The position numbers and the translations under genes are program-made. A DNA stretch of 49,728 nucleotides, taken from assembly GCA_016278505.1 (NCBI GenBank), contig JADQBQ010000042.1, positions 1 through 49,728 on the forward strand, in the 5' to 3' direction. The notes below the pieces were generated by a model. The model did no database searches, was not told the DNA's origin, and was given only the letters and a program-made list of their open reading frames with translations. Shown here piece by piece: positions 1-49,728 of the stretch (positions are counted from its first letter, which is position 1; each line of letters opens with the position of its first letter). The DNA comes from Clostridiales bacterium. GTDB taxonomy: Bacteria > Bacillota > Desulfotomaculia > Desulfotomaculales > VENG01.

Positions 1-2093
1 CTTGCTGGGTGGGATTCGCACCCACTATATGACACGCCATTTCTCGGACGCACGGCCTGTTCCAACTTTTTATTTTCTTCTTTTATTTGTAACCAATCTG
101 AGTCCGGCACAAATAAATAAATTTCATCTCCGCTGACAACCGATGCCCCTTCACTTACACACACTTTTTCAATTACACCGGACATCTCCGACACCACTGC
201 TACCTGGCAAGGTATCATTACGCCGGGATAGCTTCCTTTTAACCACTGTCCGGCAGTCTGTACATAAACGTTGGCCTCTGATCCCGGGACCAGCTCACCG
301 GCATTATCAAAGCGGACCGATACCCTTAATTCAGAATTACCATCGGACGGCTTGTTTTCCGTAGGTTGTACAGCAAACACCTTTCCTGGAATAATGTATC
401 CGGGCTCAACCTGAATTTTAGCCGGGTACCCAACTGCAATCTTAAGTCCTTCCGGAACATTAAATATAGCTGTAACATCCATTTGTTTTTCCGCGGTCAG
501 TGTAGCAATAGTTTCACCCTCTGCTATGTGCTGCGCCGTCTTAACCAATACCTCGGTAACAGTTCCGGAGTAAGGCGCATTTATCCCTCTTGCAGCATTT
601 GCATTTAATAATTTTGAGTCATGCTTAAGTTGTTCTACCCAAAGCTTCATTTCAGAAAGAGAGACTCTGGCCTCTAGGTCTTCAACAACGGCAATAACCT
701 GTCCTTTTTCTACTTTCTCACCCACCCGGATATGTAATTCTTTTAAGACACCACGGACACCACTCACAACATTATAGGTTTCTGATGGTTTTATTATCGC
801 TGATGCTGTTATGGATGAATCTTCTCTGTGTTTTTGTTGTACCACAATTAATTTATTGCTAATCAATGACGCACCGGCCAAGGCGGCACCTAACAGAAAA
901 CAAATACCAAAGATTACCCCAATTCTATGCTTACATAGATTACGTAAGAATAAAGTCTTTTCTCCTTCACCGGAAACTACTCTGACATTGGAATACGCTT
1001 TATCCTTTCCGGTAGGTAACTCCAGCCACCCGGTATAAAGCACTGAACCGTCTTCTTCTTGAGATGACCAGGCAACAGGTATCGGTGCATTTGTTTTGGG
1101 AGCAGACTCCTGTAAATTGTTGTTATTACCAACTGCATAAACGGGCAGTTTTTTATTACCCCTTGCCGAAGAAACCGGGCAACAATAAATCTCATTGCTA
1201 GATTGCCAGCATGCAAAAACAAGCCCTGAACGCCATAAAAGTAAGGGCGAAATGCGCTTGATGTTTCCCGTTAATAATTTAAGTTCGGGGTACCATGTTG
1301 TCCCTTTCATCTTATAGCTTAAGGCTACCTGCTTACCATGGTGAACAGACCACATACAGTGAAGGTTTCCATCCGGATCTATCAAAAGCGCCGGAGTGGC
1401 GGCAGCACCGGAAGTCTCCGACAGTTTTTGGGGTACCCCCCACATCCCTGTTTTTTTAAAATCAGACCGTATATAATTTATTTCTGAACTAGCATCGCCG
1501 GAAAAACAATACACCAGGTGCAAATTTCCCTGTTGATCACAAACCCCGGATGCCATCCAATCTGTTTCCCAGCCTGATAACTCTTTTGCTCTACCGGGAA
1601 ACGGCAGATTAATAATTAGCGGCTTTAACCACCCGTCGATATGATTACGCCTGTGGTGCCTTAACACCCATTTTCCCGTAGTAACTTCACGCAATGCATG
1701 AATCACGTGAACTGTATTGCTCCACCGGTCGGCAATCACCACCGGTGCTCCGGCAACAACCTGCCCCTCACGGTACGCCCACAGGGTTTTCCGGCTCCAT
1801 TTCCCACCTTCTCTACAAACATAATCTACCGAAGGATTAAACCTATTTCTATAAGTCAAATGAATACGGTTATCCTCACTAAGAGCCAAACTAAAAGGAG
1901 TCTTGGCATCAGGACTCAATTCTTCCCCTTCCAGCCATGTCTTTCCATTATCCTGGGAAATACCACATTTAAGTGATTGATTATGGTCGATAAGAAAAAG
2001 CCACATTTTGCCGTTGTAATCATTAATTAACCGATAAGTCGGCCAAAAGGTATTTTTCTCCTGCAGCACCGGATAGCCTGTTCTTACACTCAT
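1..2093 (-). CDS. Sialidase-like N-terminus / membrane helix / HlyD-type adaptor fusion (3' end cut by window edge)
   Basis: I translated the reverse strand from the ATG at 2093 and found one uninterrupted frame of 697 codons running off position 1, so the C-terminus is missing. Residues 1 to about 385 look like a beta-propeller of the sialidase/BNR type: an exact Asp-box (SQDNGKTW, residues 46-53) and further W- and G-rich repeats resembling blades. A single hydrophobic segment follows at about 388-410. Then come biotinyl-lipoyl-like halves typical of HlyD/RND membrane-fusion proteins (about 430-560, with VRVGE-like and APYSGTV motifs around a short helical hairpin) and a further lipoyl-like part at about 630-680. 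The adaptor part would normally bridge an exporter and the outside. In-frame GTG and TTG codons lie just upstream of the ATG. The neighbours are SPOCS-like and glycan genes. The catalytic residues of true sialidases cannot be confirmed, so a non-enzymatic glycan-binding propeller is equally possible. Confidence 0.75.
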   Translation of the reverse strand, partial: MSVRTGYPVLQEKNTFWPTYRLINDYNGKMWLFLIDHNQSLKCGISQDNGKTWLEGEELSPDAKTPFSLALSEDNRIHLTYRNRFNPSVDYVCREGGKWSRKTLWAYREGQVVAGAPVVIADRWSNTVHVIHALREVTTGKWVLRHHRRNHIDGWLKPLIINLPFPGRAKELSGWETDWMASGVCDQQGNLHLVYCFSGDASSEINYIRSDFKKTGMWGVPQKLSETSGAAATPALLIDPDGNLHCMWSVHHGKQVALSYKMKGTTWYPELKLLTGNIKRISPLLLWRSGLVFACWQSSNEIYCCPVSSARGNKKLPVYAVGNNNNLQESAPKTNAPIPVAWSSQEEDGSVLYTGWLELPTGKDKAYSNVRVVSGEGEKTLFLRNLCKHRIGVIFGICFLLGAALAGASLISNKLIVVQQKHREDSSITASAIIKPSETYNVVSGVRGVLKELHIRVGEKVEKGQVIAVVEDLEARVSLSEMKLWVEQLKHDSKLLNANAARGINAPYSGTVTEVLVKTAQHIAEGETIATLTAEKQMDVTAIFNVPEGLKIAVGYPAKIQVEPGYIIPGKVFAVQPTENKPSDGNSELRVSVRFDNAGELVPGSEANVYVQTAGQWLKGSYPGVMIPCQVAVVSEMSGVIEKVCVSEGASVVSGDEIYLFVPDSDWLQIKEENKKLEQAVRPRNGVSYSGCESHPA

Positions 2094-2128
2094 ACACTTC
2101 ACGCCCTTGTTCAATCTAAATTAAGCAA

Positions 2129-2539
2129 CTATGGGAAGATTAATGTTTGCCGCTTATTAGTCTCAATACATACTCGCACCACAAATTTTTGGTGAATTCT
2201 ATAGGCCAATGAACCGTCTTGATTGAAATTTAGCAATTTCTCAACTAAAATATCCGCAATGCCGGAATCTGATACGAAAAAACTTTTCTCCTCTACAGCA
2301 TCCAGGTGTTCCAGTAAAAAGGAAAAGGGCACATCATCCATTACCTGCTGGTTAAGCCCGTTATCTCCCATATAATTGACAGTTAATCTCACATAACCCT
2401 CTACAAATACCTTCTTTTCTAAAACCTTCAAAAAGCAAATATTTACCACCCGTTCCACCTTGACCTGGTCCTGCAAGTCAACCCTGGCCGGAGGTATTAA
2501 TTCCAAGTTGTGTTCCAACAGAATTTCTTCAATTCCCAT
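2129..2539 (-). CDS. SPOCS/DUF3794-like protein A
   Basis: Small 136-residue protein. I chose the ATG at 2539 because AGGAG sits seven bases upstream; a GTG at 2554 is also in frame. The sequence has the pattern of SipL-type SPOCS (DUF3794) domains: a V-F-V-E-G-Y-V strand, a second strand ending in N-Y, then D-D-V-P-F and a late V-V-R-V-C-I strand. It can be aligned by eye with the protein at 2799-3224 and with the C-terminus of the glycosyltransferase at 3254-4840, sharing (V/I)(E/D)G(F/Y), (D/E)xPF and a V-x-x-C-I ending. In clostridia the SPOCS domain of SipL binds the spore coat base protein SpoIVA (family knowledge). It ends 36 bases before the start of the sialidase-like/HlyD gene and is probably co-transcribed with it. 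No signal peptide or membrane segment is visible. A role in the spore envelope is inference. Confidence 0.75.
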   Translation of the reverse strand: MGIEEILLEHNLELIPPARVDLQDQVKVERVVNICFLKVLEKKVFVEGYVRLTVNYMGDNGLNQQVMDDVPFSFLLEHLDAVEEKSFFVSDSGIADILVEKLLNFNQDGSLAYRIHQKFVVRVCIETNKRQTLIFP

Positions 2540-2798
2540 AACCTTACTCCTCACCCATAGTTTAATTATTCTATTCTTATTATTTAACTAATAGCAAGAA
2601 TACCAATAAACCGTATTCTTTTTCATTTAAAATCAAACGGAGCATGACAAACATATAATATAAGAGTTTAAAATTGCCAAAGCTTGCAGCAAATTAAGTA
2701 AACTGGTTCATCTCAACATCTAAGGTAAGAAGATAAGCTCCCACCTGTAAAAGTGCGAGTCTTAAAAATTAGATAAAATTTTTAGGGAGGTTTTATAA

Positions 2799-3224
2799 AT
2801 GTTTTATAACCCGCAAACATGTTGTCAAATTTTTATCGAGAACAGTATCCACCTAGCTCCGGCGGCCCAAAGAGGCACTGTGAAATGCCTGCCAGAGGAT
2901 TCAATCCAAGTTACACAAGTTAAAAGTTATCCAGGCACAGTATTTATCGATGGCTTTGTTCGCGTAACCATTGAATATACCGACAAAAAAGACAACCTAC
3001 AAAAAAGAACGGATGATATCCCTTTCCAATGCAGCATGAGCCGTAAGGACGCCAATGAGGGAGATCCGTTTTATGTTACAGGCAGCACAGTATTAACTCA
3101 ATTATCTGCGGAAGAGAGTACTTTCGGCGGACCATTCAACCCGGAAATTGCTGAGCCGTCACTTGCTTTTCAATTCAACGAACAAAAAATAATAATGATA
3201 TGTATTAGAAAAAAAACCGCCTAA
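2799..3224 (+). CDS. SPOCS/DUF3794-like protein B
   Basis: 141-residue protein with a strong ribosome-binding site (AGGGAGG) before the ATG. It opens with NPQTCCQ, almost the same as the NPRTCCQ that begins the SPOCS-like extension of the neighbouring glycosyltransferase. The core has VFIDGFVRVTIEY, DDIPF and DANEGDPF, each with a counterpart in that extension. It is the only plus-strand gene in the first 12 kb and converges on the glycosyltransferase gene. The close resemblance suggests it arose by duplication, with one copy staying free and the other fused. No transmembrane segment or signal peptide is visible. The paired cysteines near the N-terminus could form disulfides or bind metal. 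A spore-coat or spore-glycan role is inferred from the family only. Confidence 0.75.
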   Translation: MFYNPQTCCQIFIENSIHLAPAAQRGTVKCLPEDSIQVTQVKSYPGTVFIDGFVRVTIEYTDKKDNLQKRTDDIPFQCSMSRKDANEGDPFYVTGSTVLTQLSAEESTFGGPFNPEIAEPSLAFQFNEQKIIMICIRKKTA

Positions 3225-3253: not shown

Positions 3254-4840
3254 TTATGGATGAACTGCTTGCATTAATACCTGTTTTTTAACACAGATGT
3301 TAACAACCAATCTTTCTCTTAGTTCGGAAGCTAAGGTACCATCCTTATTATAATTGTTCAGCTCTCCGGAAATTAATGCAAGTACCTCCATACCATCCGG
3401 CACGAAGACATCTCCTTCATTAGCGTCGTCCCGCTGGATTACACCTTGAAATGGGAATTCATCTACTATTACTTCTTCAGCATCATCCGTGCAGCAATTT
3501 AAACTTTTATAAACAATAGTCTTACTAATAAACCCTTCTATTACCACTATTCCCGGCCCCGACCTAATTGTTTCTTTAAGGCAAATTTCCCTTTTCACCA
3601 GTGGTTCAAAATGGATTAAAACTGGAGGAATAAGTTGTGTTTTTTGTTCCAATATTATTTGGCAGCAAGTTCGGGGGTTCAGGGGATATATGGGAAAACA
3701 AGAGGCCTGATGTGGTTGATAAGGCTCATATCCTATTCCACCCAGATTACCGTATAGTGCTAGAAGCTTTTTTTCTTCCCTTACCCAATTATATTGTGCA
3801 GCCCAGGCTTTTCGCCCGTTTTTCCCCAGTCGACGGCATAAATCAGGGGCGGCGGCAAGTTTTTGCAGTGCCCCGGCAATGGCCCGGCAGTCCCCGGGCT
3901 GAACGGTAACTCCACAGCCATTACCCAGCACAATGTCCTCCCATAAAGGGAAGGATGATACCAACACTGGTAACCCCGCTGCCATATACTCGAACATTTT
4001 TAAAGGCAATGAGGATAAGTGATTCGGGAGCGGATGTAAACAAGCCAACCCAGCGTCAACCGAATCCAATAAACCTGGTATTTCCTCCGGGGGCAGTACT
4101 CCCAAGTAGATTAAATTGTCATTCCGGCCGGCTTGCTCTAACACTATACGTTCCAATGCAGAGTCTGCAAAATGGCCGGCCAAGACCAGCCTAACCCCCC
4201 GGGTTAATTTTAGTGCCTCCAGCAGGTCTACAATCCCCCGGGCTTCAGAAAGCACTCCTATATATGCAGCAGTAAATGTACTATCCCGGTGGAAATAATC
4301 TTTTATAACCTTTGGTTGAATGACATCCGGCGGCGGGAAATTACATACGGAAACGATTGTAGTATTAGTAAAATTTTTTGCAATGGCGGGTGTTGCTGCT
4401 ACAACCGCGTCCAATCTTCCCGCCATGAACTTTTCCATCCACCCAAATATTCTCGCTATCGGTAGCCGAAACCGGGCGGGCAACCACTGCTTGTGCCTCA
4501 GAGTTAGGCTATAATCCTCGTGAACATCATATATTACCTGCTTATTAGTAATGTACTTAATGATTAATCCTATGAAAATCAATTCAGGGTCATGAAAATG
4601 AACAAATTCAGCACGAGAGCGAAGTCCCCGCCATAACAAACGCAACCATAGTAAAGGCCGGCCTGTACGCCGACCTTTGGGTAAACCTACTACAGTTATA
4701 CCTTCCACATTTTTAACACCGGACAGTCCTAAAGCATGTATCTCCACCTGGTATTGACGGACAAGAGAACGAGCCTGCCGGTAAAAAATACGGTTGTCAT
4801 ACCAAAAGTGAACCGAAGACATAATAAATATTTTTGACAT
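3254..4840 (-). CDS. GT4-type glycosyltransferase fused to a C-terminal SPOCS-like domain
   Basis: 528 residues, start ATG at 4840 behind TTAGGTGAT. Residues 1 to about 370 are a GT-B glycosyltransferase of the GT4 kind: an N-terminal Rossmann half with HFHDPE and YDVHEDY, then AAYIGVLSEARGI, a sugar-nucleotide region (PLKMFEYMAAGLPVLVS) and the closing NWVREEKKLLALY. Family enzymes transfer a sugar from a nucleotide donor to a growing glycan. A short linker rich in P, Y and Q follows. From NPRTCCQ (about residue 390) to the end the protein is a SPOCS/DUF3794-like domain resembling the free protein at 2799-3224. The frame is continuous across the junction. The gene is last in a leftward string of glycan genes, 32 bases after the PIG-L gene. 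I infer that the SPOCS part tethers the enzyme or its product to a spore layer. I know of no described protein with this layout. Confidence 0.85.
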   Translation of the reverse strand: MSKIFIMSSVHFWYDNRIFYRQARSLVRQYQVEIHALGLSGVKNVEGITVVGLPKGRRTGRPLLWLRLLWRGLRSRAEFVHFHDPELIFIGLIIKYITNKQVIYDVHEDYSLTLRHKQWLPARFRLPIARIFGWMEKFMAGRLDAVVAATPAIAKNFTNTTIVSVCNFPPPDVIQPKVIKDYFHRDSTFTAAYIGVLSEARGIVDLLEALKLTRGVRLVLAGHFADSALERIVLEQAGRNDNLIYLGVLPPEEIPGLLDSVDAGLACLHPLPNHLSSLPLKMFEYMAAGLPVLVSSFPLWEDIVLGNGCGVTVQPGDCRAIAGALQKLAAAPDLCRRLGKNGRKAWAAQYNWVREEKKLLALYGNLGGIGYEPYQPHQASCFPIYPLNPRTCCQIILEQKTQLIPPVLIHFEPLVKREICLKETIRSGPGIVVIEGFISKTIVYKSLNCCTDDAEEVIVDEFPFQGVIQRDDANEGDVFVPDGMEVLALISGELNNYNKDGTLASELRERLVVNICVKKQVLMQAVHP

Positions 4841-4872: not shown

Positions 4873-5502
4873 CTAATCAATAAATAACCTTATTGTTTCA
4901 AAAGCTTCAGCATAAGGCACCCCAATTTGGGTCCCCCGCGTTGTAGCCAGAGAACGTATAAATTCCTCGTTGGCATAGGGGCGTCTGGCTTGTGACTCGT
5001 AACAGGCCAGGGCTGCTAATTTATCCTTAATATTGATCTCGTCTAAAGCTATAAAACAACTAGTAGAAAAAGCCAGGTTATTCCAGGGCTCTTCATATCC
5101 CAGTAAAGTAGCATTTCTAAAAGCCCGAACTCCCTCCATGGCCACCGTTTGATGATCCTGATGGAGATCTCCCAGGGATGGAAGAAAGACTAAATCCGGT
5201 TTTAAATCCTTTTTGAGCTCTACCATTATCTCTAATATATGTTGGCGGTAAGCCGGCAATTCCCGTACGGTAAAGTCGTAAAGCAGCAAATTCGACGGTG
5301 AAATACCAAGCTTAGACGTTGCCAAAGTTACTTCTTTTTTTAGAATATCTTTAGGAAATCCTTCCGGCACTGATTTTTCCGCCGTGGAAAAAGCAACATA
5401 GAAAACATCTGTCCCCTTAGCCAGGAACTTGCTTATGGCACCCCCACACCCAAATTCGCCGTCGTCTGTATGGGGTGCCAGTATCAATACCCTTTTTATC
5501 AT
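4873..5502 (-). CDS. PIG-L/LmbE-family deacetylase
   Basis: 209 residues, ATG preceded by GGGGGTGGG. The N-terminus has the family's metal-binding motif as APHTDDGEFGCGG (the usual form is PHPDDE) and later LHQDHQ, the HxxH pair that completes the zinc site. Family members remove the acetyl group from N-acetylglucosamine-type sugars on small molecules, lipids or nucleotides. The change from PDDE to TDDGE is seen in other family members and need not mean loss of activity. It lies 35 bases downstream of the DegT aminotransferase and 32 bases upstream of the glycosyltransferase, so it probably acts on the amino sugar made by this operon. No signal peptide, so cytoplasmic. Length is normal for the family. 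Confidence 0.85.
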   Translation of the reverse strand: MIKRVLILAPHTDDGEFGCGGAISKFLAKGTDVFYVAFSTAEKSVPEGFPKDILKKEVTLATSKLGISPSNLLLYDFTVRELPAYRQHILEIMVELKKDLKPDLVFLPSLGDLHQDHQTVAMEGVRAFRNATLLGYEEPWNNLAFSTSCFIALDEINIKDKLAALACYESQARRPYANEEFIRSLATTRGTQIGVPYAEAFETIRLFID

Positions 5503-5537: not shown

Positions 5538-6644
5538 TTAGGATTTAAGCACATCCACTACACGTTTCACTATGCTATCATCTAACCCGGCATAAAGCGG
5601 CAGAGACAGCACTTCACGAGAGGCCAGTTCCGCCTCCGGCAAATCTCCCTTCCTATACCCCAAATAATTAAAAGCTTCTTGTAAATGCAAAGGCAGAGGA
5701 TAATAAACACCTGCCGCTATATTATTACGAGTAAGTTCCTTTAAAATTTTGTCTCGATGGGAACACCTTACTGTATACAAATGATAGACATGATGATTAA
5801 TTGATTCCTCCTTGGGCAGCCTCAATGTAAATCCTTCAAATGTAAGGTCGTCACATAATTTTGCGTATTGCGCAGACAATCTCCTTCGTTCTTGATTCCA
5901 TTTATCTAAGTGTCTTAATTTAACACGAATTATCGCCGCCTGTATTTCATCCAGGCGGCTGTTATAACCGATTACCCGGTGGTAATATTTTTTTGTGCTG
6001 CCGTGTACCCGCAGCATACGAATTTTTTCTGCCAGTACGCCATCATTAGTAACCACCATACCCCCGTCACCGTATCCACCAAGGTTCTTGGTAGGAAAGA
6101 AGCTAAAACATCCCGCTGATCCCAGTGAGCCGGCCTTTTGGCCTTTGTACAATGCTCCTATAGCCTGGCAGGCATCTTCTATCACCGTTAAGTTAAATTG
6201 TTTGGCTAGTTCATTAATTACCTCCATATTTGCCGTTTGCCCAAAAATATGAACAGGTACTATAGCCTTGGTTCGAGGGGTGATTTTATTACATATATGT
6301 TGCGGACTAATATTGAAGGTATCCGGTTCTATATCGACAAATACAGGTTTTGCACCTACCCTGGCAATTGCTCCCGCTGTGGCAAAAAATGAAAAAGGGG
6401 TGGTAATTACTTCGTCACCGGCACCAATACCGGCTGCCAATAATGAAAGAATCAGGGCATCAGTTCCACTGGCTACCCCGATTCCGTAACTTGTCCCGCA
6501 ATATCCAGCTATTTCTGCCTCCAGTGCTGTCACATTGGAGCCCAGAATGTACTCTCCACCCGCAAGCACATCCTGGATGGCTTGCATTATTTCCTCTCTG
6601 AGTTCCTTATATTGAACCTTTATATCTATAAGTGGAATGGCCAT
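5538..6644 (-). CDS. DegT/DnrJ/EryC1/StrS-family sugar aminotransferase
   Basis: 368 residues from the ATG at 6644, which has AGGAGG upstream and lies one base after the stop of the preceding acetyltransferase; a longer frame reaching 6752 is less likely. The protein is a PLP-dependent aminotransferase of the type that aminates keto-nucleotide sugars: N-terminal PLIDIKVQYKEL, GVASGTDAL, TTPFSFFATAGAI, VPVHIFGQ, EDACQAIGA, and the PLP lysine in FFPTKNLGGYGDGG, followed by NSRLDEIQAAI. With the neighbouring UDP-sugar dehydrogenase and acetyltransferase it resembles the WbpA-WbpE-WbpD route to 2,3-diacetamido-glucuronic acid. The matching 3-dehydrogenase (WbpB) is not in the window, so the end product is uncertain. 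Confidence 0.9.
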   Translation of the reverse strand: MAIPLIDIKVQYKELREEIMQAIQDVLAGGEYILGSNVTALEAEIAGYCGTSYGIGVASGTDALILSLLAAGIGAGDEVITTPFSFFATAGAIARVGAKPVFVDIEPDTFNISPQHICNKITPRTKAIVPVHIFGQTANMEVINELAKQFNLTVIEDACQAIGALYKGQKAGSLGSAGCFSFFPTKNLGGYGDGGMVVTNDGVLAEKIRMLRVHGSTKKYYHRVIGYNSRLDEIQAAIIRVKLRHLDKWNQERRRLSAQYAKLCDDLTFEGFTLRLPKEESINHHVYHLYTVRCSHRDKILKELTRNNIAAGVYYPLPLHLQEAFNYLGYRKGDLPEAELASREVLSLPLYAGLDDSIVKRVVDVLKS

Positions 6645-6645
6645 C

Positions 6646-7389
6646 TTAATCCTCCTGCTTGATAAATTCTTTTTGCGGTACCGCTCTTTTAACCCGGCTG
6701 GGTACGCCCATATAAACTTTCCCCTGCTCTGTATTTTTAGTAACAACGGCACCGGCTGCTACAAATGTCTCTTCTGCCACAGTTATCCCCGGTAACAAAA
6801 GTGCTCCTCCTCCCACCCGGGCAGCGTATTTGATTATAGGGCCTTGTTTAGCAGCTAGGCGTGCTTCGGTACGCCCCATATAATTGTCGTTAGTAGTAAT
6901 CACCATGGGAGCAATGAATACATTATCCTCAAGTACAGTATGAGCTGTTATGTAAGCACCACTTTGAACTTTACAGTTTTTACCTATCGCAGCCTCATTT
7001 TCAACAATAACCCCCGTCCCTATCATGGTTCGTTCTCCTATCAGGCAATTTTCCCTGACCAGCGCTCTGTCCCCCATAAAACATTCCTGCCCCAGCTCGC
7101 AGCCCGCGTATATTATAGCCATTGTACCGATAATGCTGTTATCAGCAATGGAAACAGCATTTAGCGGCCTGTTTTTTACCGTGCTGGTCACGGCGAAAAC
7201 TGGTTTTTTACCGACCACTGCACCGTCTCCTATGGTAACTCCGCTGCCAATCCGGGTCCCCTTAAATATTTTCACATTGTCCCCTATACAAACACCGTTG
7301 CCAACTTTTACATCTGATTCAATTATAGAAAATCTTCCTACTTTTACTCCCTGCCCCAGTGAAGCGTTATCGTCAATATATCTCTCCAT
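6646..7389 (-). CDS. Left-handed beta-helix (hexapeptide-repeat) acyltransferase
   Basis: 247 residues, built almost entirely of hexapeptide repeats of the form (I/V)GxGxx (for example GSGVTIGDGAVVG and the run around ENEAAIGKN), ending with GGGALLLPGITVAEETFVAAG and the closing MGVPSRV motif. Such proteins are trimeric sugar-nucleotide N- or O-acetyltransferases (WbpD/WlbB-like). The repeat number is higher than in the shortest family members, giving a long helix. One base separates its stop from the start of the aminotransferase, which suggests translational coupling: aminate, then acetylate. The start ATG is 26 bases after the LCP gene's stop, so the three genes probably share a transcript. 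The acyl acceptor cannot be told from sequence. Confidence 0.88.
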   Translation of the reverse strand: MERYIDDNASLGQGVKVGRFSIIESDVKVGNGVCIGDNVKIFKGTRIGSGVTIGDGAVVGKKPVFAVTSTVKNRPLNAVSIADNSIIGTMAIIYAGCELGQECFMGDRALVRENCLIGERTMIGTGVIVENEAAIGKNCKVQSGAYITAHTVLEDNVFIAPMVITTNDNYMGRTEARLAAKQGPIIKYAARVGGGALLLPGITVAEETFVAAGAVVTKNTEQGKVYMGVPSRVKRAVPQKEFIKQED

Positions 7390-7415: not shown

Positions 7416-8387
7416 TTAATGCGTTACAGCAAATTGTTCCTGTATTTGCTTAATTGCACTAGAATCTGGAATCCAGTAACTAATTCCTTCAATGTATTTG
7501 GGTGTTCCAGCCAGTGTTTGTAACTGCAAATCCCCCAGGTCTACTTTTCTGGCCAATAAGCCCAGCTTGATAATGTCACCAAGTGATAAAGAAGTGTTGG
7601 AATGCCTGCGAAGTTCCATATATATACTGGCTAAGTCCAGCGGCCCTACCTGCTGCCGCACCTTTTGCAGCAGTGCGCGTAAAAATTGCTGCTGCCTTTC
7701 AATTCTCCCTATATCTCCAGTGGGGCAGTTGCGGTCAAGTATATAATAGTAGGCTTGCTGACTGGTCATTGTTTGTTTACCCTTGGCAAAGTGATAGTAT
7801 TTGCCTTCCATTTCCTGAGGCACTTCAATCTCAATACCCCCTAAAATATCAACTATACGGGCAAAGACAGTGTAATCAAGCCTTAGAAAGTGATCCATTT
7901 TTATTCCGAGTAATTTTTCAACCGACTCAATGGTAAGGGGCATACCACCGTAAACATGAGCATGGGCAATCTTAGTCATATTGTGCCCCGGTACCTGGGC
8001 TCTGGTATCACGGGGTATGGATAAACACTCTACCTGTTGTCTGTCAGGGTTCACTCGCAACAGTAAAATCACATCAGCCCGGTAAGGACCGGGGCGTGCA
8101 GGTCCATCAGGGGAACCATGTTTATCTAAACCCACCATTAGTATATTCATGGATTTATTAAGGTTAGTTGATGACTCGGCGTCAATAGTAGGCTTAGTGG
8201 TTGGCTGTAGTGATTCAGTTTCTTTACTATCTAGTTTTGTTATATTTGCAGATGAATGTTGGCCATTATTTTGAGCATAGCCCAGGTATAAAACAGATGT
8301 AATTACAAAACCCACTAACAATAAACATAATGCCAGTTTATTAAAAATTCTTTTCAACCTTTCCACCCGCCTAACTTTTTGATCCAT
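7416..8387 (-). CDS. LytR-CpsA-Psr (LCP) family cell-wall glycan ligase
   Basis: About 323 residues. An ATG at 8387 has a better-spaced GTAGGTAG site than the GTG at 8393. A basic N-terminus is followed by one membrane helix (about residues 15-38), a Ser/Thr-rich linker, and the LCP domain: ILMVGLDKH, YRADVILLLRVNP, SIPRDTRAQVPGH with the conserved arginines, MTKIAHAHVYGG, LDYTVFARIVDILGGIEIEVP and the late DIGRIERQQQFL. Family members move undecaprenyl-linked polymers onto peptidoglycan on the outer face of the membrane. Its place at the head of the aminotransferase/deacetylase/glycosyltransferase string suggests that the glycan made here is attached to the wall or, during sporulation, to the cortex side. 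It follows the terminator of the dehydrogenase gene and so likely has its own promoter. Confidence 0.9.
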   Translation of the reverse strand: MDQKVRRVERLKRIFNKLALCLLLVGFVITSVLYLGYAQNNGQHSSANITKLDSKETESLQPTTKPTIDAESSTNLNKSMNILMVGLDKHGSPDGPARPGPYRADVILLLRVNPDRQQVECLSIPRDTRAQVPGHNMTKIAHAHVYGGMPLTIESVEKLLGIKMDHFLRLDYTVFARIVDILGGIEIEVPQEMEGKYYHFAKGKQTMTSQQAYYYILDRNCPTGDIGRIERQQQFLRALLQKVRQQVGPLDLASIYMELRRHSNTSLSLGDIIKLGLLARKVDLGDLQLQTLAGTPKYIEGISYWIPDSSAIKQIQEQFAVTH

Positions 8388-8443
8388 ATTCACTACCTAC
8401 TAATCTATTCAGGGTGAGTTTTTTTGTGATTGTTGGTAAAGTA

Positions 8444-8487: not shown

Positions 8488-9825
8488 TTATATTAGAATC
8501 ACCTTTTCCTGCCCTTTCTGTAGGCTCCTTGTTACATTACGGGTATCTATAACTACCTGGGCTTGATCTACTATCCACTGATAATTAATACAAGAATGAT
8601 CCGTTGTGACTAACACACAATCAACACTGGAAAGCACTCTGGAAGTTAAGGTGCAGCAGCTAACCGATAGATCCGAAGACAATCTCACTTCCGGTACATA
8701 TGGATCAAAATATAAGACATCGGCACCCAGGGAAATGATCCTGGACATAATATTGATGGCTGGAGATTCACGGCAGTCGCCGATGTCACGCTTATAAGCT
8801 ACTCCCATTAAAAGTATCTTTGCACCCCTTAGACTCTGGTTTTTCTCTCCGAGCATCCTTTCCAGCTTTCTTACCACATACTCCACGGCTTCAATATTGA
8901 TCTGTGCCGCGATTTCAATTAACCTTGTACTGTAACCAAATTCCTTTGCTTTCCAACTCAAAAAATGAGGGTCGATGGGAATACAGTGCCCCCCTACCCC
9001 CGGTCCCGGATAAAAAGTTTGGATGCCAAATGGTTTGGTCCCTGCCGCGTCAATTATTTCCCAAACGTCAAGCCCCATCTGATCACATATAAACATCAAC
9101 TCATTTACCAGGGCAATGTTAACAGACCGATATACATTTTCAAACACCTTGGTCATTTCTGCTGCGGTAGGGGAGGAAACCATAATAGTGTAATCAACTA
9201 TTTCCTTATAAAATAAACTAGCCAGCTCTGTACATTGAGACGTAATTCCACCTACAACCTTAGTTATATTCTTTGTGTTATATGTAACATTTCCTGGGTC
9301 AACCCTTTCGGGAGAGAAGGCAAGAAAGAAGTCATCCCCCACCTGAAGGTCTGAGTTTTTTTGTAATAAGTTAAGAATCTCCCCGGCGGTGGCCCCGGGA
9401 TAGGTAGTACTTTCAAGAGTAATTAGTTGCCCACGGCGCAAATGAGAAGCACAGTGCTTTACAGCATTGATTACAAAAGATAAATCAGGCTCTTGTGTTT
9501 TGGTTAACGGTGTGGGAACGCAAATGATAATAACATCGCATGATGACAATACCGAAGTATCTTCTGTCGCGAGAAATTTCTTGTTTTTTACTACCTCTCG
9601 CAAATCAGCCCCCAGGACATCTGGAATATAACTTAACTTTTTATTTATCATGGCCACTTTACTAGCGTCCACATCAATACCCGTTACCCTAAAACCCTGT
9701 CTCGCTACCTCTACGGCTATAGGCAGACCAACATAACCAAGACCTAAAATAGCAACGTCCGCAGTGTGTGAAAGAATTTTTTGTTTTATTTCATAACCAT
9801 TGTGATACATTTTCAATACCCCCAT
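8488..9825 (-). CDS. UDP-N-acetyl-hexosamine 6-dehydrogenase (WbpA/WecC-like)
   Basis: 445 residues. The N-terminal Rossmann motif is GLGYVGLPIAVEVARQG, followed by ICVPTPLTKTQEPD, TTYPGAT, FSPERVDPGN and the catalytic cysteine region GVGGHCIPIDPHFLSWKAKE. The C-terminal UDP-binding domain has GVAYKRDIGDCRESPA and YFDPYVPE. The family oxidises C6 of a UDP-sugar twice with NAD+ to give the uronic acid. The GGHCIPIDPHFL form fits UDP-GlcNAc or UDP-ManNAc dehydrogenases better than UDP-glucose dehydrogenase. Two starts are possible, ATG 9825 and ATG 9810; both have G-rich sites upstream. It is followed by its own terminator and preceded by galE, and supplies the uronic-acid precursor for the glycan genes downstream. 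Confidence 0.9.
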   Translation of the reverse strand: MGVLKMYHNGYEIKQKILSHTADVAILGLGYVGLPIAVEVARQGFRVTGIDVDASKVAMINKKLSYIPDVLGADLREVVKNKKFLATEDTSVLSSCDVIIICVPTPLTKTQEPDLSFVINAVKHCASHLRRGQLITLESTTYPGATAGEILNLLQKNSDLQVGDDFFLAFSPERVDPGNVTYNTKNITKVVGGITSQCTELASLFYKEIVDYTIMVSSPTAAEMTKVFENVYRSVNIALVNELMFICDQMGLDVWEIIDAAGTKPFGIQTFYPGPGVGGHCIPIDPHFLSWKAKEFGYSTRLIEIAAQINIEAVEYVVRKLERMLGEKNQSLRGAKILLMGVAYKRDIGDCRESPAINIMSRIISLGADVLYFDPYVPEVRLSSDLSVSCCTLTSRVLSSVDCVLVTTDHSCINYQWIVDQAQVVIDTRNVTRSLQKGQEKVILI

Positions 9826-9942: not shown

Positions 9943-10923
9943 TCAATATCCGCCAGGATTTTCTCTGTGCCATTCCCAGGCAGTGTAAATTAGAGTTTCA
10001 AGCCGGCTGCATTCAGGCTTCCAACCCAATTCCCGCTCTGCTTTTTCCGCCGAGGCAACCAGAACAGCGGGATCACCCATCCTGCGATCTCCTTCAATTG
10101 TCCTTACCATTCTTCCGGTAACCTCCTCTGCCGTTTTAATTACTTCTCTTACCGAATAACCCTCCCCACTGCCAAGGTTATAAACAGCAGACCGGCCTTC
10201 GCCAAGAAGCATTTTTAAAGCTAAAACATGAGCATCAGCCAAATCAAGTACATGAATATAGTCTCGAATACAAGTACCGTCACGGGTCAGATAGTCTGTG
10301 CCTAAAATCTTTACGTGTGGTATGAGTCCCAAGGCAGCCTTTATCACTACAGGGATCAAATGGGTTTCCGGGTCATGATCTTCACCGATGTCACCTGCAG
10401 GGTCTGCCCCGGCAGCATTAAAAAAACGCAAAGAAGTGTATTTTAGACCAAATGCCTGCCCAAACCACCTTAGCATCTCTTCTACTGCTAACTTGGTGGC
10501 ACCGTAGGCATTAGTAGGGACAGTCCGGTGATCTTCGGAAATAGGTAATTGCAACGGATCACCGTAAACGGCCGCCGTTGACGAAAAAACCATATGTTTA
10601 ACGCCGGTACTCAGCATTGATTCAAGGAGGTTAAGAGTTCCAACAACATTATTGCGGTAATATATATCCGGTTGGCCCATGGATTCCCCTACCAGTGCAT
10701 ACGCAGCAAAATGGATAACCGCATCAATTTTGTGATCATGAAAGACCTGCTTAAGTGCCGACTGATCACATAAATCGGCGTTAACAAAAGGAATTCCTGC
10801 GATTGCCGACATGTGTCCGTTACACAAATTATCTAATACCAACACTTCATAACCTTCCTTGATTAAGCGTCTCACCGTGTGACTGCCGATATATCCGGCA
10901 CCACCGCAAACCAGGATATTCAT
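9943..10923 (-). CDS. galE: UDP-glucose 4-epimerase
   Basis: 326 residues, ATG behind GGGGGAGG. Extended SDR with GGAGYIGSHTVRRL at the N-terminus, HFAAYALVGESM, SSTAAVYGDP, the catalytic YGATK (YxxxK), RFFNAAGADP, and the late GTCIRDYIHVLDLADAH that marks GalE. It interconverts UDP-glucose/UDP-galactose, or the N-acetyl forms in some members, in the cytoplasm. It begins 33 bases after the stop of the SLH amidase, so the two may share a transcript. A gap of 117 bases precedes the dehydrogenase gene. Confidence 0.95.
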   Translation of the reverse strand: MNILVCGGAGYIGSHTVRRLIKEGYEVLVLDNLCNGHMSAIAGIPFVNADLCDQSALKQVFHDHKIDAVIHFAAYALVGESMGQPDIYYRNNVVGTLNLLESMLSTGVKHMVFSSTAAVYGDPLQLPISEDHRTVPTNAYGATKLAVEEMLRWFGQAFGLKYTSLRFFNAAGADPAGDIGEDHDPETHLIPVVIKAALGLIPHVKILGTDYLTRDGTCIRDYIHVLDLADAHVLALKMLLGEGRSAVYNLGSGEGYSVREVIKTAEEVTGRMVRTIEGDRRMGDPAVLVASAEKAERELGWKPECSRLETLIYTAWEWHRENPGGY

Positions 10924-46775: not shown

Positions 46776-48161
46776 ATGGCAGGCAGGGATATTACCAATA
46801 GGCTCTTGCTCAGGCTTCTGGGAGGCGCAGCTATTGGCGCCGGCACCGCGCTGGCAAGCAAAGCTCTGGCAGGCAGGGTAATAAAGGGTATATCTACCCG
46901 TTTTATGACCGACCCTTACAAGGAAAATTTATGGGAGGCATTTTCTGCCGGTTCCCGCTCCACCCCCCAGGTGATTGTTGAGACCAACTTGAGATCTGAG
47001 CTGGGCAGGCAAATTAAGCGGCCGTTGGGAGGCCCTAAAAACTATCCTGATTTTAGCAGGGTGATGTTTAATCCTGCGCAACTGGAAACCTTCCCTACCC
47101 CGGAAGACAAAAATGTTAAAACCTCAGTTATACTGGGGCGGCGTGCCCAAAAGCCACTGTACCTGGACATTCCCATTTTCATATCGGGTATGGCCTATGG
47201 CTTTGCCCTCAGTGAGAAGACCAAAATTGCCCTGGCCCGAGGAGCTGCCATGGCCGGCACTGCCACCAACTCCGGGTACGGCCCTTACCTGGCTGAGGAA
47301 CGCAAAGCGGCCAAACATCTAATCATGCAATACAGTCGCGGCAAGTGGTCAAAAGAGCCGGAAATACTTAAAAATGCAGATATGATAGAGATTCAACTGG
47401 GGCAGGGCGCTATGGCCGGAACCGGTGAAGTTTTAAAGCAGGCTAACATGAATGCCAAAATGATACGTCTGTTAGGTCTAAAACCGGGTGAAAACGCTAT
47501 TCTTCACGCCAGTTTACCGGAAATTTCATCCCCTGACCAATTGGGGAATTTGGTGGCAGAAATAAGGAGTATAACCGGAGGCGTGCCGGTGGGAATAAAG
47601 ATTGCAGCGGGCAATGACCTGGAAATAGACCTAACTCGCATTTTGGAGGCAGACGTTGATTTCGTATCCATTGACGGTGCGCAAGGGGGTAGTTCGGGTG
47701 CGCTCCCCATTCTGGAGGATGATTTCGGCCTCCCTACCCTTTACGCCCTATGCCGGGCTGTAAAATTTATGGAACAAGAACAGGTGCGCGGTGACATAAG
47801 CCTCATTATAAGCGGCGGGCTTAAAACACCGGGGGATTACCTGAAGGCCTTAGCCCTGGGAGCAGATGCCGTAGCCATAGGGACTATAGCCCTGTTCGCC
47901 ATGGCTCACACCCAGGTTTTTAAAGCGTTGCCCTTTGAACCACCTATCGAGGTTGTTTTCCAGGAAGGTAAATATAAAGATAAACTTAATGTTGAAAAGG
48001 GAGCGGGAAACCTAGCCAGTTACCTGTTATCATCTGTGGAGGAAATGAAAACAGCCACCAGGGCTTTGGGAAAAGATTCCTTTAGCTCATTGAATAAAAG
48101 TGACCTTTTTGCCCTGGATAAACAAACAGCAGAAATTGCGGGTATATCCGTGGGATACTAA
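46776..48161 (+). CDS. Stand-alone glutamate-synthase-like FMN protein, copy 1
   Basis: 461 residues, ATG behind AGAAAGGGGTAAGTTA. A short basic/hydrophobic N-terminus (LLGGAAIGAGTALASK) may associate with the membrane. The rest is the central FMN domain of glutamate synthase (Glu_synthase): IFISGMAYGFALSEKTKIALARGAAMAGTATNSG, EIQLGQGAMAG, VPVGIKIAAGNDLE, VDFVSIDGAQGGSSGALPILEDDFGLP, IISGGLKTPGDYLKALALGADAVAIG. The glutaminase domain and the Fe-S cysteines of real GltB are absent, so it is not a complete glutamate synthase; such orphans have unknown substrates. It converges with a homologous gene at 48188. Confidence 0.9.
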   Translation: MAGRDITNRLLLRLLGGAAIGAGTALASKALAGRVIKGISTRFMTDPYKENLWEAFSAGSRSTPQVIVETNLRSELGRQIKRPLGGPKNYPDFSRVMFNPAQLETFPTPEDKNVKTSVILGRRAQKPLYLDIPIFISGMAYGFALSEKTKIALARGAAMAGTATNSGYGPYLAEERKAAKHLIMQYSRGKWSKEPEILKNADMIEIQLGQGAMAGTGEVLKQANMNAKMIRLLGLKPGENAILHASLPEISSPDQLGNLVAEIRSITGGVPVGIKIAAGNDLEIDLTRILEADVDFVSIDGAQGGSSGALPILEDDFGLPTLYALCRAVKFMEQEQVRGDISLIISGGLKTPGDYLKALALGADAVAIGTIALFAMAHTQVFKALPFEPPIEVVFQEGKYKDKLNVEKGAGNLASYLLSSVEEMKTATRALGKDSFSSLNKSDLFALDKQTAEIAGISVGY

Positions 48162-48187: not shown

Positions 48188-49579
48188 TTAACGTTTAAGT
48201 GCATGAAACGCCAAATCTATGCCTGCAATCTCAGCAACATCTCTATTGATAGTAACAATATCCTCCTTGGAAACTTCTCTGGTTGACGTTTTACCCAGGG
48301 CTTTTACTGCCTCCTCCATTTCATAAACTGTAGCATGCAGAAAACGGGCCAGACTTTTGGCACCCTTATCGATATTAAATTTACCACTTTTCTTACCATG
48401 ATAGTAAGCTATCTGAGGTGGGGGCTCAAAAGGTACTACTTTTAAAACCTGGGTATGGGTAACTGCAAAAAGTATTGCCGTTCCCATATAAACAGCATCC
48501 GCTCCCAGGGCCAGCATTTTCAAACATTCCCCGGGCGTGGAAATGCCGCCTCCCACCAACAGACTTACTTTTCCTTTTAAACCGTGCTTGGCCCAGAACT
48601 TTGCCGCCCTTGCAGCAGCTATCATGCCGGGAAGGCCGAAATCATCTTCCAATATGGGTAACGAACCGTGGGTTCCCCCTTCTCCACCATCAACACTGAC
48701 AAAATCCGCCCCGGAATTAACTGCTATCTCCAAGTCCCCTTCCACATATTTACCGGCCCCAATCTTAACCCCAACCGGCACCCCCCCGGTGATATCCTTA
48801 AGATAATCCACCAGAGACTTTAAATCTTTTTCTGAGTTTATGCCCTCTATCCTGTTGTGTATAACGGCGTCCTGTCCCTTTCTTAAACCCATTCTTTTTC
48901 TGAGTTTCTTACCTATCTTTTTTGCTTTTTTGGTCTTGCCCACTCCTGCATTCGCTCCGTGACCAAATTGTATCTCTATAGCGTCACTTTGTTTTAAAAT
49001 ATATTCTTCTTTATTCCAGTTCACCCGAGAATACTGTAAGATTAAGTGCTTGGCCGCCTTTCTCTCGGATTCCAGCCAAGGCCCCAGACCCGTATTAGTG
49101 GCTGTACCCGCGATACTGGTTCCCTTGGCAATGGCAACCTTATAGGCTTCCGTTAATGCCAGTCCGTAGCCCATGCCACCGGCTAGAATAGGAATTGTCA
49201 GGTATAGAGGCTTTTTTGCTTGCGGACCTATAACGACACCGGTATCAATGTTTGTCTCCCTGATTGTAGGCAAAGTCTCCAGTTGTGCAATGTTGAAAAA
49301 AATATCCTGTAGGAATTTAAACCTTCTTGGCCCGCCTATGGGCCTTTCAATAAAACTTTTGGTATGGGCACGCATTTCTGTTTCCACCAAGATATTGGGA
49401 TTAAATCTCTGGATAGAAGTAGATAATTCCCATATGTTTTTACTAAATTTTTCCGTCATCACCAAATAAACAATTTTATCGGATATAAAATCAATGGCTT
49501 TTCGGGAAACAAATACACCGCCGGCTGCAGATAGGGTGCCGAGGCCCAGCATTTTAAATAAATTAAAATTATTCTTCAT
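48188..49579 (-). CDS. Stand-alone glutamate-synthase-like FMN protein, copy 2
   Basis: 463 residues from ATG 49579 behind GCGGGGTGAAAAG; the frame opens at 49600. The layout equals the copy at 46776: N-terminal hydrophobic segment (KMLGLGTLSAAGGVFVSR), then IPILAGGMGYGLALTEAYKVAIAKGTSIAGTATNTG, EIQFGHGANAG, VPVGVKIGAGKYVEGDLE, ADFVSVDGGEGGTHGSLPILEDDFGLP, LLVGGGISTPGECLKMLALGADAVYMG. The two proteins are alignable throughout but clearly diverged, especially in a K/R-rich insert here (KTKKAKKIGKKLRKRMG). Lacks glutaminase and Fe-S parts. The tail-to-tail arrangement leaves 26 bases between stops, with no clear terminator. Confidence 0.9.
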   Translation of the reverse strand: MKNNFNLFKMLGLGTLSAAGGVFVSRKAIDFISDKIVYLVMTEKFSKNIWELSTSIQRFNPNILVETEMRAHTKSFIERPIGGPRRFKFLQDIFFNIAQLETLPTIRETNIDTGVVIGPQAKKPLYLTIPILAGGMGYGLALTEAYKVAIAKGTSIAGTATNTGLGPWLESERKAAKHLILQYSRVNWNKEEYILKQSDAIEIQFGHGANAGVGKTKKAKKIGKKLRKRMGLRKGQDAVIHNRIEGINSEKDLKSLVDYLKDITGGVPVGVKIGAGKYVEGDLEIAVNSGADFVSVDGGEGGTHGSLPILEDDFGLPGMIAAARAAKFWAKHGLKGKVSLLVGGGISTPGECLKMLALGADAVYMGTAILFAVTHTQVLKVVPFEPPPQIAYYHGKKSGKFNIDKGAKSLARFLHATVYEMEEAVKALGKTSTREVSKEDIVTINRDVAEIAGIDLAFHALKR

Positions 49580-49728
49580 CTTTTCACCCCGCTTGCACAA
49601 CTACAACTAGTATGTATCAGGTATAAATAATTCTTACACTCTTCTTGTAAATCGGTCATTAGTATCAGCAGCGCGGTCGAGTAGAAACAGGCCTTTCCCA
49701 GCTTATCCACCAGTTTAGGTGCTGCCTA

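Follow-up and report, generated by a model that had tools for sequence, protein, structure and literature searches.

An in-frame fusion of a GT4 glycosyltransferase to a diverged SPOCS-type domain in a Clostridiales bacterium

Introduction

Little is known about how glycosyltransferases come to be positioned at the spore surface and which targets they have there. The GT4-type protein CotSA of Bacillus subtilis is found in spores and needs CotS for coat assembly. Like YtcC, it is a spore-associated glycosyltransferase of the ytcAB-ytdA-cotS cluster, in which genes for a UDP-glucose dehydrogenase and an epimerase accompany it (PMC2860764). A glycosyltransferase annotated as CotSA has been found in Moorella spores (PMC8745062), Clostridium difficile SgtA glycosylates the spore protein BclA3 (PMC7157674), and for the legionaminic acid of B. 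subtilis spores both the transferase and the acceptor were unidentified (PMC7439481).

The window analysed here, a stretch of 49,728 nucleotides from a Clostridiales bacterium (contig JADQBQ010000042.1), contains a gene at 3254-4840 that a preliminary description, made from the letters alone, read as a GT4-type glycosyltransferase running in a continuous frame into a SPOCS domain of the SipL/SpoIVA-binding type. This raises the question of whether a glycosyltransferase can carry its own spore-surface module, an arrangement in which placement could be tested by removing a single domain.

Results and Discussion

The fused gene

The fusion of a GT4 glycosyltransferase to a SPOCS-type domain in one frame is real. 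Positions 3254-4840 of the minus strand form one uninterrupted open reading frame of 528 codons with an ATG start, and across the junction the remaining two frames are interrupted by many stops. The coordinates and domain order of the preliminary description are correct, and strands are added here. The parts of the gene and the two free relatives of its C-terminal domain are:

3740..4840, minus strand: GT4 glycosyltransferase domain, residues 1-367 (Pfam PF00534 and PF13439)
3680..3739, minus strand: linker, residues 368-387 (from the translation and codon listing)
3254..3679, minus strand: SPOCS-type domain with the motifs NPxTCCQ...DANEGD...VNICV, residues 388-528, plus the stop codon
2799..3224, plus strand: free 141-aa protein made up of one SPOCS domain from this subfamily, encoded convergently with the glycosyltransferase gene
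2129..2554, minus strand: free single-domain SPOCS protein lacking the CC motif, 141 aa (Bacillaceae-only profile, E 3e-6)

The glycosyltransferase half

Membership of the N-terminal part in GT4, as first proposed, is upheld by matches of both Rossmann halves above the Pfam curated cut-offs, with 62.3 bits for PF00534 (cut-off 26.4; E 5e-17) and 40.4 bits for PF13439 (cut-off 28.5; E 4e-10). Among the 113 genomes of the class that were searched, 20 besides the host have relatives at 33-43% identity, and the unfused relatives in the same class are 37-40% identical. The window enzyme retains 63 of the 71 positions invariant among 12 unfused relatives, including the FEYM(A/S)-G-P segment, and by these signatures the enzyme half therefore looks intact. 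None of the 20 other genomes has a SPOCS tail on its relative. By inspection, several relatives in the same class (L050, L052, L053 and L066-L069) are joined to a second GT4 or to a GT4 plus an acetyltransferase-like C-terminus, which indicates that fusions arise readily in this GT4 family.

The exact fusion was seen in one genome. Searches for the same layout gave no second case, either in the class (113 genomes) or in samples of the phylum, Bacillales and Bacilli. None was found when 84,980 species genomes were scanned for two short peptide patterns, although distant fusions could escape such patterns. The long open reading frames with multiple SPOCS domains at the loci retrieved from the phylum sample (L020-L048) contain no glycosyltransferase domain. 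The preliminary description named no described example, in agreement with the literature searched, in which coverage of subscription journals is thin and no paper describes a fusion of this kind.

The SPOCS-type domain and its free neighbours

All three SPOCS-type domains of the window score below the PF12673 curated cut-off of 23.6 bits: the fused domain with 11.4 bits (E 0.4), 2799-3224 with 21.2 bits (E 3.5e-4) and 2129-2554 with 19.3 bits (E 1.3e-3). They clearly resemble one another, as had been noticed in the letters, with the fused domain aligning to 2799-3224 at z = 30 (39-40% identical) and to 2129-2554 at z = 24 (500 shuffles). A profile built solely from ten Bacillaceae copies (see below) matches the fused domain at E 2e-24 (88.6 bits), 2799-3224 at E 2e-22 and 2129-2554 at E 3e-6, and the host's own SipL at just E 0.017 (Z = 100,000). 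Comparison by hhalign of a 13-member subfamily alignment with six SipL-type and related SPOCS repeats gives a match probability of 95.3% (E 2.2e-8, 82 columns), and these profiles indicate that the window subfamily is homologous to the SPOCS repeats of SipL. Given this match and the sub-threshold PF12673 scores, we assign the domain to a diverged subfamily of SPOCS type, without counting it as a member under the Pfam criterion.

An AlphaFold2 model of residues 388-528 has a mean pLDDT of 89 and an all-beta fold with six long strands. Foldseek and VIA-align searches of the PDB with this model give weak matches typical of common beta folds, the best being to an alpha-crystallin domain (VIA Z 4.4, rmsd 5.6 over 85), with acetylcholine-binding protein at about Z 3.3; there is no SPOCS structure among these fold matches, and no PDB sequence match was found for the domain. 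The preliminary description had held that its reading would be refuted if PF12673 and a structure search both gave no match. The Pfam scores are indeed sub-threshold and no solved structure was matched, yet the profile-profile comparison still recovers the homology.

Two families of spore-surface proteins were also compared. The NCBIfam CsxC exosporium family NF045794 matches 2799-3224 at a sub-threshold 23.1 bits (curated cut-off 135) and does not match the fused gene. The CC motif near the N-terminus of the domain led us to consider endospore-appendage (ENA or F-ENA) subunits, and this candidate was rejected, as no window protein has a Pfam match to DUF4183, the family to which F-ENA subunits belong (PMC11952670). 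Directly downstream of 2129-2554 on the same strand is an open-ended reading frame (3-2114, minus strand) with a long N-terminal part without Pfam matches and a C-terminal HlyD/biotinyl-lipoyl-type barrel-sandwich region.

The fusion could be a functionally meaningless accident, arising by loss of the stop codon between a glycosyltransferase gene and a neighbouring SPOCS gene or from an assembly error. Its presence in a single genome, the lower GC content of the SPOCS part (38%, versus 47% in the glycosyltransferase part) and the single-domain relatives alongside would all fit such an origin. We nonetheless regard it as improbable, given that the junction is in frame with no stop, and that the subfamily motifs are preserved in the fused domain, which also has a confident fold model. 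About 60% of the positions that align between the fused domain and its closest free neighbour are different, so the fused domain is not a fresh duplicate.

Upstream genes

The GT-SPOCS gene is the last in a run of genes on the same strand that starts with an epimerase gene:

4873..5502, minus strand: PIG-L family de-N-acetylase (PF02585, E 5e-15), directly upstream, with a 32-bp gap to the glycosyltransferase gene
5538..6752, minus strand: DegT/DnrJ/EryC1 sugar aminotransferase (PF01041, E 6e-125)
6646..7389, minus strand: hexapeptide-repeat acyltransferase (PF00132, E 4e-29)
7416..8393, minus strand: LytR-CpsA-Psr (LCP) family protein, glycopolymer attachment (PF03816, E 2e-40)
8488..9825, minus strand: UDP-sugar dehydrogenase (PF03721, PF00984 and PF03720)
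9943..10923, minus strand: GalE-like NAD-dependent epimerase (PF01370, E 3e-63; GalE assignment by inspection)

Strand and spacing suggest that the run from the epimerase to the glycosyltransferase gene is co-transcribed, and the PIG-L de-N-acetylase gene is probably in the same operon as the glycosyltransferase gene. A regex search for sporulation promoters found none before the glycosyltransferase gene, the operon or the free SPOCS proteins. Elsewhere in the window, 46776-48161 and 48188-49600 encode two proteins that look related and are of similar length, with their genes convergent.

The gene content of this region bears on whether the locus is concerned with spores at all. The operon might make a vegetative cell-wall or capsule glycan, with the SPOCS-type domain serving as an interaction domain within a biosynthetic complex; the LCP-family protein and an SLH-domain amidase, both upstream on the same strand and typical of vegetative envelopes, are in keeping with this, as is the outcome of the promoter search. 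We think this unlikely, in that homologues of the domain with a named source all come from Bacillaceae and have spore-type architectures or neighbours, and two free relatives of the domain lie next door in the window.

Relatives of the domain in Bacillaceae

A scan of genome contigs for close relatives using the fused domain alone returned nothing, and an alignment of two sequences was needed. With two short peptide patterns derived from the fused domain and the first free domain, the scan of 84,980 species genomes identified ten loci in nine genomes, all of them Bacillaceae, distributed among the genera Litchfieldia, Ectobacillus, Virgibacillus, Bacillus, Pseudoneobacillus, Allobacillus, Filobacillus and Aquibacillus. 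Every homologue from a named organism is from Bacillaceae, a family of spore-formers. The preliminary description would have been undermined by homologues mainly in non-sporulating organisms; this is not what is found, and the host itself encodes SpoIVA and SipL.

Broader searches with the subfamily profile gave matches in 10 of 299 Bacillales genomes and in 7 of 398 genomes sampled from the host phylum, the latter being weak except in the host itself; with a stricter cut-off, 6 of 389 Bacilli genomes matched. A 130-domain tree places the window trio inside the group of Bacillaceae modules with support of 100/93, separate from the other SPOCS domains that were sampled in the host phylum, although long branches blur its exact place in that group. 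The host lineage may have acquired the module horizontally. Viral contigs and plasmids yielded no relatives.

The Bacillaceae copies are situated C-terminal to mucin-like Thr/Ser stretches or to other N-terminal domains, or stand alone or nearly so. Further architectures with the same C-terminal domain include collagen-like, beta-propeller-like (labelled by inspection) and multicopper oxidase proteins. The oxidase (L106:1474-3402, genome G576) is a single case, CotA-like on the basis of Pfam multicopper-oxidase matches and otherwise by inspection, and no oxidase with a SPOCS-type tail was found in the one other genome of the same genus. A CotZ gene lies within 6 kb in three of the ten loci. 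Nearby in six of the ten are members of one GT4 gene family, 69-77% identical among loci, and GT2 genes are also present near the domain loci. The window glycosyltransferase has no match among the neighbour genes of these loci at E 1e-5.

These architectures and neighbour genes support an association of the domain subfamily with the spore surface, and in this respect the preliminary description holds; the Bacillaceae proteins that end in the domain are likely to be spore-surface proteins. No characterised member of the subfamily was found in the literature searched. Four of the GT4 copies (L080:3536-4813, L072:6673-7959, L075:6773-8062 and L077:1586-2866), which are weakly recognised by Pfam and 69-76% identical, lie near mucin/collagen-SPOCS genes, and the GT4 family may glycosylate the products of those genes.

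That the module is carried mostly by non-enzymatic stalks invites another reading of the window gene, that the fused protein is a structural coat component assembled through its SPOCS tail, with a GT4 part of little or no enzymatic role. Retention of the invariant glycosyltransferase positions and the location of the gene in an apparent nucleotide-sugar operon argue against this, and we give it little credence.

A glycosyltransferase with its own docking module

The reading that we consider probable is that the fused gene encodes a spore-envelope GT4 glycosyltransferase with its own docking module, for which the upstream genes supply the nucleotide sugar. The N-terminal GT4 domain would use a nucleotide sugar that is probably the product of the upstream epimerase, UDP-sugar dehydrogenase, aminotransferase, acyltransferase and deacetylase. 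Within the mother cell, the C-terminal all-beta SPOCS-type module would dock the enzyme on the spore envelope, where a glycan could then be made or attached. The expression of the fused enzyme during sporulation, its docking and localisation, its docking partner, its sugar donor and its acceptor or substrate are all parts of this scheme that we infer. The module itself would be a portable C-terminal tail, as on the Bacillaceae stalk proteins and the CotA-like oxidase. A wider reading, plausible though put forward tentatively, is that the NPxTCCQ SPOCS-type domain serves generally as a tail for docking at the spore surface, borne by stalks, an oxidase and here a glycosyltransferase, and that the self-docking enzyme glycosylates the envelope in place.

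The nearest functional counterpart of the window gene is CotSA. Like CotSA and YtcC, the window gene encodes a GT4-type enzyme, and it has a UDP-sugar dehydrogenase gene (8488-9825) and an epimerase gene (9943-10923) linked to it on its own strand, a likeness in gene set. Whereas CotSA enters the coat via the separate CotS, the window enzyme has a docking-type domain built in. SgtA is similar to the proposed window enzyme in being a glycosyltransferase acting on a spore-surface protein, and we know of no spore-layer domain in SgtA. The Bacillaceae mucin- and collagen-like proteins (L071-L080) share the C-terminal subfamily and have glycosyltransferase genes nearby, but their N-terminal parts are stalks or other domains where that of the window gene is the glycosyltransferase. 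Another enzyme that ends in this tail subfamily is the L106 oxidase, whose family is known in spore coats; it is, however, a different enzyme, in Bacillales, and has also been seen once. We rate as new here the combination of a spore-coat-type glycosyltransferase, itself of a known kind, with a portable tail, and the tail as the more general point. If the module does target cargo to the spore surface, it would be a reusable tail of stalks and enzymes that is overlooked by the current Pfam model, and it could serve for enzyme display on spores.

The SipL/SpoIVA-binding label originally given to the domain does not fit. In C. difficile it is the LysM domain of SipL that binds SpoIVA (PMC6436350), and in SpoVID the reported binding partners of the SPOCS domain are CotE and SafA (PMC10867305), which makes SpoIVA an unlikely docking route for the fused protein. 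SipL has several SPOCS domains and a C-terminal LysM, whereas the fused protein has one domain and no LysM, and the tree groups its domain with the Bacillaceae modules.

Host sporulation genes

The host genome encodes SpoIVA (E 4.9e-117), and its SipL is a separate gene with an open frame of 536 residues, three SPOCS domains and, by inspection, a LysM-like end. CotZ is undetectable in the host genome, so that one candidate partner, encoded near some of the Bacillaceae genes, is missing. This, the single occurrence of the fusion and the lack of a recognised sporulation promoter weigh against the docking reading. Several genomes of the class (L004 in contig G000:C19, L012 and L014-L017) encode a protein of 364-390 residues in which a single SPOCS domain precedes a further domain, and in the host the gene for this protein (L004) adjoins SipL.
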